The position numbers and the translations under genes are program-made. This document shows positions 1 through 2,606 of a DNA stretch of 64,000 bases, piece after piece; the stretch's first letter is position 1; each line of letters opens with the position of its first letter. The stretch is taken from NCBI GenBank assembly GCA_003175935.1, contig PSRI01000128.1, positions 1 to 64,000 of the forward strand. Direction: 5' to 3'. Under the pieces are notes generated by a model. It did no database searches, had not been told where the DNA came from, and was given only the letters and a program-made list of their open reading frames with translations. This DNA is from Bacteroidota bacterium. Its GTDB lineage: Bacteria; Bacteroidota; Bacteroidia; Chitinophagales; Chitinophagaceae.

Positions 1-291
1 TTCTCATGCCCGGGTGTACACAAATTGTAAGCATACATCATCACAAATCACTCCCACACCCCGGGTGTCGACACCTAAAAACTGCATTTGGTTTCCATTT
101 TAAAAAAATATTCTCCCGGGTGTCGACACAAATTGTAAGCATACATCCAGGGTAAATCAATCCCACCCCCGGTATCGACACCTAAAAACTCCAATTGGTC
201 TCCATTTAAAAAAAATGTTCTCCCGGGGTGTCGACACAAATTGTAAATGCACGTCCAGGGTATTCCCCGGGTGTCGACACAATAAAAATTG
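1..291. repeat. Palindrome array, unit type A (about 107 bp)
   Basis: About 2.7 tandem copies of a unit of roughly 107 bp start near 12, 118 and 225; the array probably continues left of the window. Each unit holds two palindromes about 50 bp apart. One is followed by AAATTGTAAGCATACATC, the other by CTAAAAACT and an A-rich stretch. Palindromes of the GGTGTCGACACC family lie near 64, 119, 171, 227 and 270, with a GGTGTACAC form at 13. A C-rich flank (CCCGGG or CCCCGG) sits on the left of most of them. The short minus ORF 75-305 is only a translation of these repeats. The copies are not identical, which indicates ageing or selection on the cores only. Confidence 0.85.
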
Positions 292-720
292 AATATAGTG
301 AACACCAGTTAAGTGTAAATTTTGAGCGTCGACACCGCAGCATTGGGTAAAATGTTTATTATGGTGTAGACCACTTTAATTCTAATGGTGTCGACACCGT
401 GGGATTTTAGGAAATTGAAAGTGGTTGAAATGTTGGCAGGTGTACACCATTTTGTTTTGAATGGCGTCGACACCGCGGGATTTTGGGAAATTTAAAAGTA
501 GTTGAAATGTCATCAGATGTATTGCAATTTGTTTTGAATGGTGTCGACACCGGGGATTATAGCAAATAAAAGCTGGTTTAAATATTGGCAGGTGTACACC
601 ATTTTGTTTTGAATGGCGTCGACTCCCGGGAACCTCAGTTGAAATTTTTTGTGGTGTAAACCATTGCGAATTAAATGGGCGTCGACACCGTGGGAGTAAT
701 GAAATGTAATTTGGTTTTAT
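292..720. repeat. Palindrome array, unit type B (about 76 bp)
   Basis: Four to five copies of a unit of about 76 bp start near 363, 439, 516, 591 and 653. Each has a 10-bp palindrome GGTGTACACC (variants GGTGTAGACC, GGTGTAAACC and a decayed GATGTATTGC), then about 14 bp such as ATTTTGTTTTGAAT, then a 12-bp GGCGTCGACACC or GGTGTCGACACC. The 12-bp forms begin near 325, 387, 463, 540, 615 and 678. The G-rich flank lies on the right (CACCGCGGGATTTT), the mirror image of type A, so the two halves appear to face each other with a switch near 291-325. The minus ORF 382-750 is a repeat translation and not a gene. Confidence 0.85.
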
Positions 721-766: not shown

Positions 767-798
767 TTTGCATCCCTTTTTTCCCAAACGTATTTTTG
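767..798 (+). promoter_or_regulatory. Bacteroidota-type promoter of the RAYT-like gene
   Basis: TTTG at 767-770, 20 bp, then TATTTTTG at 791-798 fits the known Bacteroidota primary-sigma pattern (TTTG, 19-21 bp, TAnnTTTG). It sits 33 bp before the ATG at 831 and just after the last repeat. The expected transcription start is near 805. Confidence 0.5.
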
Positions 799-830: not shown

Positions 831-1391
831 ATGCAATCTATTTTCAATGTCGAATTCCTTTCGGCACAAATACAAAATCAAAAACCCCTATTTGTCAACG
901 ATAAAATAAAAATCGAAATCGTTGAATCCCTTCACTGGCTAGTGCGACAACAACGATGCACCATCTACGGATTTTCAATACTTCCCAGCGAGCTAAACCT
1001 CATTTGGGAAATAAATCCGGATGTCCGAAGAACCGATTGCCAGGGATCACTTTTCAAATTCACCGGACATATGTTTAAAAAATACCTCGAAAAAAATGAA
1101 CCCGAAACCCTGGCAAATTATCTGGTAGAAAGGAAAGACCGAAAATATCATTTCTGGAATGGAAATCCACTCATCCAGGAATGCTGGAATCCGAAATTTT
1201 TAGAAAATAAACTTTACAGAATACATCAACTTCCCTGCTACCCTAAATGGAATCTGGCGAAAGTGCCCGAAGAATATCATTGGTCTTCTGCTGCATTCTA
1301 CAAATTAAACGATCACTCATTCCCTTGGCTTACTTCTTACAAACTAATACCAATTCATTCCCCTTCATCTTTCGCTCCTCACAATGCTTAG
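831..1391 (+). CDS. RAYT-like (REP-associated Y1 transposase family) protein, catalytic residues lost
   Basis: This 186-residue protein follows the layout of the Bacteroidota Y1-transposase/RAYT family: a YGF-x-I-x-P strand near residue 47, then FKFTGHMFKKYL, then the DRKYHFWNGNPL block, and finally PEEYHWSSAAFY near the C-terminus. In active relatives the first block reads roughly MPNHIHLIW and a later block LEYIHNNP. Here the first reads LPSELNLIW, so both HUH histidines are replaced (E and N), and the second reads LYRIHQLP, so the usual tyrosine position holds R with a Y one residue earlier. Length is close to normal and there is no frameshift, so the frame has been kept. It lies directly downstream of a palindrome array, as true RAYTs lie beside REP elements. 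A DNA-binding rather than DNA-cutting role is an inference. Confidence 0.8.
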   Translation: MQSIFNVEFLSAQIQNQKPLFVNDKIKIEIVESLHWLVRQQRCTIYGFSILPSELNLIWEINPDVRRTDCQGSLFKFTGHMFKKYLEKNEPETLANYLVERKDRKYHFWNGNPLIQECWNPKFLENKLYRIHQLPCYPKWNLAKVPEEYHWSSAAFYKLNDHSFPWLTSYKLIPIHSPSSFAPHNA

Positions 1392-1439: not shown

Positions 1440-2606
1440 TCATATCAACCTCTTAATATTTCCAAGATCTCCATCAATCACCACTACACCGGGCTGCTTT
1501 CCTTTATCTAAACTTCCCAATTGCTCCTCAAGTCCCAAAGCTCTTGCACCATTCATAGTGCACCATCTCAAGACATTTGCAATATTCAGTTCAGGATAAA
1601 ATTTTCGTAATGTGCGTATCTCGTTTACTAAATCCAATTGATGATTGGAAGCCAGGCTATCAGTACCAAGAACAATATTGCAGTTATTCCTTTCAAACAT
1701 TCTTACGTCGGGAATTGTACCATTGATATATTGATTTGCATTCGGACAAAAACACCAATACATATTCCCGAAATCGACAGCCTGATATTTTTTGGAAAAA
1801 TCAATATCATCCTGACTACTCGCAATATTATGCACCATCATCATCGACCTTTTACCAGAAAAATGTGGAAGAAAACTTTGCAGACTGCTTACGCCAGTTG
1901 GAATAAACGAGCTCATATCGGAGCCCAACTCTTCATACAACCTTAAAAAACTTCCACTCTTTGATTGGAGAAATTCATTTTCATCTTCAGTCTCCTGGTT
2001 ATGAATAGAAACATAATCAGCACCAAGATCATTGATTAGGTCCATTAATTTGCCAGACACAGAATAAGGAGCATGCGGGACAATATCCACCAGCGCACTA
2101 TTTCCCAACTCGCTCCTGAATATTTCCGCAACCTTTATGGCATTCGAAAGTCTGCTTTCTGCAACAGATTCCGGAAATCCTGCCGCTTCAATAAAATTTC
2201 TGTAAATAATTTCAGACCTACTTTTTTGTCTCACCGTATCACTTCCATTGCAAATATCCCCTACTGCAACTATTCCACTCCGCAACATTTCATTATCAGC
2301 AGTTTCAATAGCCTGCAGCCTAAGTTCTTCGTCAAAATTTCTTCGCTTAATCACGCCCAAAAGAAAATCAATCATTCCTGTTTTTTCGGGAATCACGCCC
2401 TTCAAATAGGACAATTCCAAATGACAATGAGCATTCACCAGGCCCGGACTTATTATCCCATTAAAATTTCTTATATCATCTCCGGCCTCATTATCATTTA
2501 CTATTGCTTCAATTTCACCATTGGTTTTACAAATAAGCACTTTATCGCCATTCAACATTGTAATGCCGGTAAAAATTTTATCAGCCTTATATTTATGATA
2601 AGCCAT
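1440..2606 (-). CDS. Amidohydrolase family protein (deaminase-like)
   Basis: The 388-residue protein belongs to the metal-dependent amidohydrolase superfamily (COG0402-like: chlorohydrolase, cytosine or aminofutalosine deaminase relatives). Visible metal ligands are H60-x-H62 in NAHCHLELS, H202 in SIHNQETEDE and D316 in GTDSLASN. VPHAPYS around H178 and a C-terminal GKQPGVVVID strand are also typical. No signal peptide is seen, so it is probably cytoplasmic. The NAHCHLELS form resembles aminodeoxyfutalosine deaminases of the futalosine menaquinone pathway, but no other pathway gene is nearby, so the substrate is left open. It converges on the RAYT-like gene and diverges from prfA. Confidence 0.8.
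   Translation of the reverse strand: MAYHKYKADKIFTGITMLNGDKVLICKTNGEIEAIVNDNEAGDDIRNFNGIISPGLVNAHCHLELSYLKGVIPEKTGMIDFLLGVIKRRNFDEELRLQAIETADNEMLRSGIVAVGDICNGSDTVRQKSRSEIIYRNFIEAAGFPESVAESRLSNAIKVAEIFRSELGNSALVDIVPHAPYSVSGKLMDLINDLGADYVSIHNQETEDENEFLQSKSGSFLRLYEELGSDMSSFIPTGVSSLQSFLPHFSGKRSMMMVHNIASSQDDIDFSKKYQAVDFGNMYWCFCPNANQYINGTIPDVRMFERNNCNIVLGTDSLASNHQLDLVNEIRTLRKFYPELNIANVLRWCTMNGARALGLEEQLGSLDKGKQPGVVVIDGDLGNIKRLI

Follow-up and report, generated by a model that had tools for sequence, protein, structure and literature searches.

RAYTs (REP-associated tyrosine transposases) have been described as domesticated transposases, with an unclear benefit to their hosts. Those of TnpAREP subclass 2.6 (RAYT group 5) carry the published motifs NH[LIV]H and YIH[QN]NP (PMC6006769), and in the E. 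coli TnpAREP the asparagine four residues after the tyrosine serves as the third metal ligand (PMC6006769). In three TnpAREPs, replacing the tyrosine by phenylalanine is enough to abolish cleavage or strand transfer (PMC8266576), and one survey set aside RAYT members lacking HUH and Y, regarding them as probably non-functional (PMC6006769). A RAYT gene with REPs on either side is called a REPtron. In E. coli the REPs contain GTAG, and 4ER8 is the structure of the E. coli TnpAREP in complex with a REP hairpin. The window analysed here makes up the first 64,000 of the 68,975 bases of contig C148, in a Chitinophagaceae genome that is 87% complete, and it resembles a REPtron in that an array of short palindromic repeats is directly followed by a RAYT-like gene (Table 1). 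It differs in that the gene lacks the inverted hairpin pair and the repeat is a perfect 12-bp palindrome that folds weakly as a single strand, and the array is without the GTAG of E. coli REPs. If true, a RAYT without catalysis in which fold and frame are preserved would separate binding from cutting naturally, and would allow a test of whether the value of RAYTs to their hosts is binding rather than transposition.

To place the gene, relatives were collected by searching genomes of the family twice and by scanning named genomes once, and were then aligned, while the new loci of an order-level search, which gave nothing closer than 49% identity, were left out of the alignment. Relatives were present at E <= 1e-3 in 68 of 150 Chitinophagaceae genomes. 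Across all three sets, relatives aligned over nearly the whole length with 30–49% identity to the window protein, the nearest being that of the Chitinophagaceae MAG SCNH_8 (L092, 49%). All 45 members of one family set (A2) matched NCBIfam NF047646 (REP_Tyr_transpos) and 34 of them matched PF01797 (E <= 0.01). The window protein itself scored 20.1 bits against NF047646, under the 80-bit cut-off, and had no match in Pfam, including PF01797; used as the single query, it found nothing meaningful in a sequence search of the PDB and no relatives in a scan of the named genomes. The window protein nested with 100/100 support among intact RAYTs of Chitinophagaceae, Pedobacter and Flavobacteriaceae in a tree of 43 proteins inferred by maximum likelihood (LG+C20+F+G4). 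By their NH[LIV]H, FW.R and YIH.NP motifs, their length, their C-terminal serines and their presence in Bacteroidota, the relatives correspond to subclass 2.6, equal to group 5 (PMC6006769), and the window protein shares the length, the predicted fold and the C-terminal serine motif. The AlphaFold2 model, which was built from 45 sequences and leans on the alignment of intact relatives, had a mean pLDDT of 92.8 and a pTM of 0.87, with the former HUH motif on strand 54–61 and the former Y motif on helix 121–136. Its best PDB fold match was 4ER8 (E 8e-7, TM 0.60/0.67), at 12% identity to the E. coli protein. Taken together, the clade, the 30–49% identity and the fold match confirm that the gene is a RAYT homologue of the Bacteroidota group, and we file it as a subclass 2.6 descendant that does not satisfy the family's catalytic definition. 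A second, distant RAYT of the same genome (L002 1432–1995, contig C132) has its SHTH and YTHDNP motifs intact.

Table 1. Features at the left end of the window (positions in the window; 12-mers are given by their first base).
Feature	Position	Strand	Detail and basis
Left half-array	9..281	+	Units of about 54/108 bp carrying CCCGGGTGTCGACAC; 12-mers at 64, 119, 171, 227, 270; the same repeats occur next to recO at one end of contig C211
Right half-array	325..689	-	Units in opposite orientation, period about 76 bp; 12-mers at 325, 387, 463, 540, 615, 678; GGTGTA.ACC-like arm precedes each 12-mer from 387 on
Bacteroidota-type promoter match, TTTG-N20-TATTTTTG	767..798	+	Perfect pattern match
RAYT/TnpAREP-like gene	831..1391	+	Codes for 186 aa; derived from subclass 2.6 (group 5); without the catalytic residues
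Degenerate HUH strand, residues 50–59	978..1007	+	ILPSELNLIW (family IMPNHIHLIW); alignment
Codon of H54E	990..992	+	GAG; alignment
Codon of H56N	996..998	+	AAC; alignment
Degenerate Y-motif helix, residues 126–135	1206..1235	+	NKLYRIHQLP (family QKLxYIHxNP); alignment
Codon of Y130R	1218..1220	+	AGA; alignment
Codon of N134L	1230..1232	+	CTT; alignment
C-terminal extension past the relatives' stop position	1344..1391	+	Alignment; modelled with low confidence (pLDDT 56 in last block)
Amidohydrolase-like gene	1440..2606	-	Host neighbour; faces the RAYT-like gene and the array

The catalytic motifs lie in an ungapped stretch of the family alignment. Residues H, H, Y and N were found at positions 54, 56, 130 and 134 in 113 of 116 aligned members, while the window protein has E, N, R and L, so that the two HUH histidines, the tyrosine and the third metal ligand are all replaced (H54E, H56N, Y130R and N134L). 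The two further exceptions were L008, a gene cut off by the end of its contig, and L121_2, which is probably misaligned. The scan of named genomes used a pattern containing MPNH and thus favoured intact copies, whereas the family-level genome searches were free of this bias. Where subclass 2.6 has NHuH the window protein has SELN, and where the subclass has its tyrosine and Y...NP it has RIHQLP, suggesting that nuclease and strand-transfer activity has probably been lost. An earlier note on this DNA had described a RAYT-like protein with both the HUH and tyrosine sites lost and an intact frame, setting LPSELNLIW against MPNHIHLIW and LYRIHQLP against LEYIHNNP; the alignment reproduces both contrasts, the frame runs through 186 codons with zero internal stops, and N134L, which the note did not name, joins the list. 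Its description of the gene as full length held for the completeness of the frame and had to be corrected for the length, because the frame continues past the position of the relatives' stop codon and the protein is about 14 residues longer than theirs. As to the near-consensus promoter that it named, no sigma-70 site was found upstream of the gene on the + strand, but TTTG-N20-TATTTTTG was matched perfectly. Counting both strands, 2.7 such matches are expected per 64 kb, hence roughly 0.003 per 150-base upstream region, for a match that was picked post hoc. The gene is probably expressed.

To evaluate how the changes are distributed, conserved columns were defined as those kept in at least 94% of relatives (n=25). 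Eight of them were lost in the window protein (T11, V49, M51, N53, H54, H56, Y130 and N134), and seven of these eight fall on the HUH strand and the Y-motif helix. The other 17 were kept, including W59, T78, W109, K127, H132, P135, Y149, S152, S153 and Y157; K127, H132 and P135 are neighbours of the lost residues on the Y-motif helix. The probability that all four catalytic residues are among eight random losses is 0.0055. The replacements are also deep at the codon level, Y to R requiring three base changes and H to E, N to L, M to L and V to S two each. Further conserved residues lost were T13, W17, R111 and Q126. The window protein has a pI of 8.8 and a net charge of +4, as compared with −3 to +3 in five near relatives, a mild basicity that is compatible with nucleic-acid binding and is no proof thereof.

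We consider it moderately probable that the gene is a former RAYT that lost its activity and was retained as a non-cutting, most likely nucleic-acid-binding protein. A Bacteroidota-specific RAYT (subclass 2.6 or group 5) would have come to the interval between recO and an amidohydrolase gene with or beside a palindrome array, would then have lost single-strand nuclease and strand-transfer activity, and would since have been kept as a folded, mildly basic protein that does not cut and probably binds nucleic acid. The proposal of the earlier note that the protein was exapted and is not decaying was supported in part. The 100/100 clade, ENRL in place of HHYN, the loss pattern, the simulations described below, the codon phase, the model, the charge and the promoter speak for it; against it are the lack of an orthologue with the same changes, the long branch, the other conserved losses, the passed stop and the missing hairpins.

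The main alternative is a decaying pseudogene, in which RAYT function was lost and the frame is still open by chance; we regard this as unlikely, though a serious contender, and exaptation as the likelier of the two. To see what neutral decay would leave behind, we simulated it from three intact relatives, stopping at an equal number of lost conserved columns, with 1500 runs per setting. The frame remained open in 0.7–3% of the runs under uniform decay, and in 0.07% or less when indels were added at 0.1 per substitution, while all four catalytic residues were lost in 0.7–1.7%. The mean minimum number of base changes per lost codon was 1.1 in the simulations as compared with the observed 1.67–1.75, a value reached in 0 of 1500 runs in every setting; the simulation assumes independent single-base changes, and a clustered mutation or local conversion tract, which violates this assumption, could mimic such multi-base codon changes. 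Decay also fits poorly with the 18 near-invariant positions that lie away from the catalytic strand and helix positions, of which 17 are intact, and with the codon-phase G+C of the frame (0.47/0.32/0.37), which resembles that of neighbouring genes. On the side of decay, the terminal branch of the window protein measures 1.72 changes per column as compared with 0.06–0.67 in its clade-mates (about three times longer), as in relaxed selection, and the family stop position and the flanking hairpins are lost. The evidence on either side comes from a single sequence without a close orthologue. Orthologues with the same ELN/R changes, which the earlier note had proposed to look for, were absent from samples of about 400 genomes of the family and about 400 of the order; every relative examined (<=49% identical to the window protein) keeps the catalytic motifs, and the sole other genome of the genus (G077) lacks the RAYT-like gene of the window. 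Elsewhere in that sister genome a separate RAYT survives merely as a C-terminal fragment (L173 1378–1593, EEWKYSSTKFYETGIDIWRLMTHPGD), indicating that RAYTs do die in this genus. Very improbable, in our judgement, is an enzyme that is still active with a shifted site, E54 and N56 acting as metal ligands and Y129 as the nucleophile beside the normal position. Glutamate and asparagine can bind metal in principle, and a tyrosine immediately precedes the usual position (LYR in place of LNY). However, the third metal ligand is gone as well (N134L), a shift of one residue in an alpha-helix turns the side chain away by about 100 degrees, such an arrangement occurs in none of the relatives, and the three TnpAREPs cited above did not tolerate even phenylalanine at the tyrosine. 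Because of the loss pattern, the depth of the codon changes and the simulated survival of the frame, we read the active centre as fast-evolving and the remainder as constrained, a pattern expected of a protein retained for a non-catalytic role.

The adjoining palindrome array reported in the earlier note is real, as 11 matches to GGTGTCGACACC with <=2 mismatches were found at 64–689, as compared with an expectation of 0.6 for the entire 64 kb. The palindromes of the array are distinct from the hairpins of the family. Intact relatives are flanked by hairpins such as GTTGG[C/T]G-TCCC-C[G/A]CCAAC, and stems of >=7 bp were present on both sides of 65 of 112 family genes (the window gene counted among the 112), as compared with 2 of 224 shuffled flanks in which a stem reached this length. 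The stems flanking the window gene are 4 and 2 bp, so that it lacks the secondary structure on both sides, and the family hairpin was absent from 359 kb of its own genome. As a single strand, the array palindrome folds at −2.2 kcal/mol or weaker. A hairpin formed from the two arms of a right-array unit was considered and rejected, since it beat shuffled sequences in merely 2 of 5 units. The array 12-mer differs at two positions from the core of a family hairpin, GGTGTCCCCACC, suggesting that it may be a derived REP, though one that folds weakly as a single strand. Among the relatives, the intact RAYT of L006 (gene at 1474–1989) has an upstream array of >10 hairpin units, each TCGGTTGGTGTCCCCACCAACCGA-like, with a period of about 57 bp, an example within the family of an intact RAYT immediately preceded by a long array.

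The site was compared with that of the sister species (G077), in which the amidohydrolase gene faces recO across a gap of 20 bp, the genes ending at 706 and 727. In the genome of the window, recO stands at the end of contig C211, the first ~105 bases of which carry the array repeats. Given these repeats and the array beside the RAYT-like gene, the order is most likely recO - array - RAYT-like gene - amidohydrolase, with a join of C148 and C211 that we infer and that was not sequenced, and the array and the gene together are most likely extra DNA relative to the sister species. There is an even chance, in our view, that array and gene are neighbours by descent or accident and that the palindrome belongs to another host system for DNA binding or methylation, a reading compatible with exaptation and decay of the gene alike. 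Consistent with it, a second array (C104/C140) has no RAYT beside it, the same 12-mer is dispersed in housekeeping genes, and the array palindromes are not stable hairpins. Against it, array and gene occur together in what is a gap of just 20 bp in the sister species, the intact relative L006 also has its long hairpin array directly upstream, and the family hairpin GGTGTC-CC-CACC and the array GGTGTC-GA-CACC are separated by two differences, a comparison made post hoc. That the protein binds nucleic acid is probable; that it binds the GGTGTCGACACC array is speculative, recognition of the array being a guess. A stronger version, in which the RAYT was converted to a non-cutting sequence-specific DNA-binding protein and the GGTGTCGACACC arrays and single sites form a chromosome-wide site system, appears improbable to us.

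The genome of the window (G000) contains 22 perfect copies of GGTGTCGACACC (examples at 1501–1512 in L061, L066 and L064), as compared with 0 or 1 in each of 120 relatives and with 0.02–0.04 expected from a Markov model, an over-representation of at least 500-fold. Six copies lie in two arrays and 16 are dispersed, 13 of the latter inside long open frames. These 13 stand in ordinary genes, housekeeping genes included, where they are read as GVDT or VSTP. Their origin as insertions was rejected for SucB and YggS, which align gap-free to solved homologues, so that the 12-mer arose there via substitution or codon choice. Foreign or contaminating contigs were not supported as the cause, the local G+C being 0.37–0.42 and that of the genome sample 0.39. 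The three other versions of GGTGTNGACACC are entirely absent from the genome, one-mismatch copies of GGTGTCGACACC were absent from a 304-kb sample, and a plasmid search gave no match. The second array, of GTGTCGACAC palindromes, occupies L036 1463–1701 and L062 1–585, at the end of contig C104 and the start of C140. Its neighbours are an MFS transporter on one side and a pentapeptide-repeat gene on the other, no adjacent RAYT was seen, and its spacing is ~25–30 bp in places. The ends of the two contigs have sequence in common and are probably contiguous.
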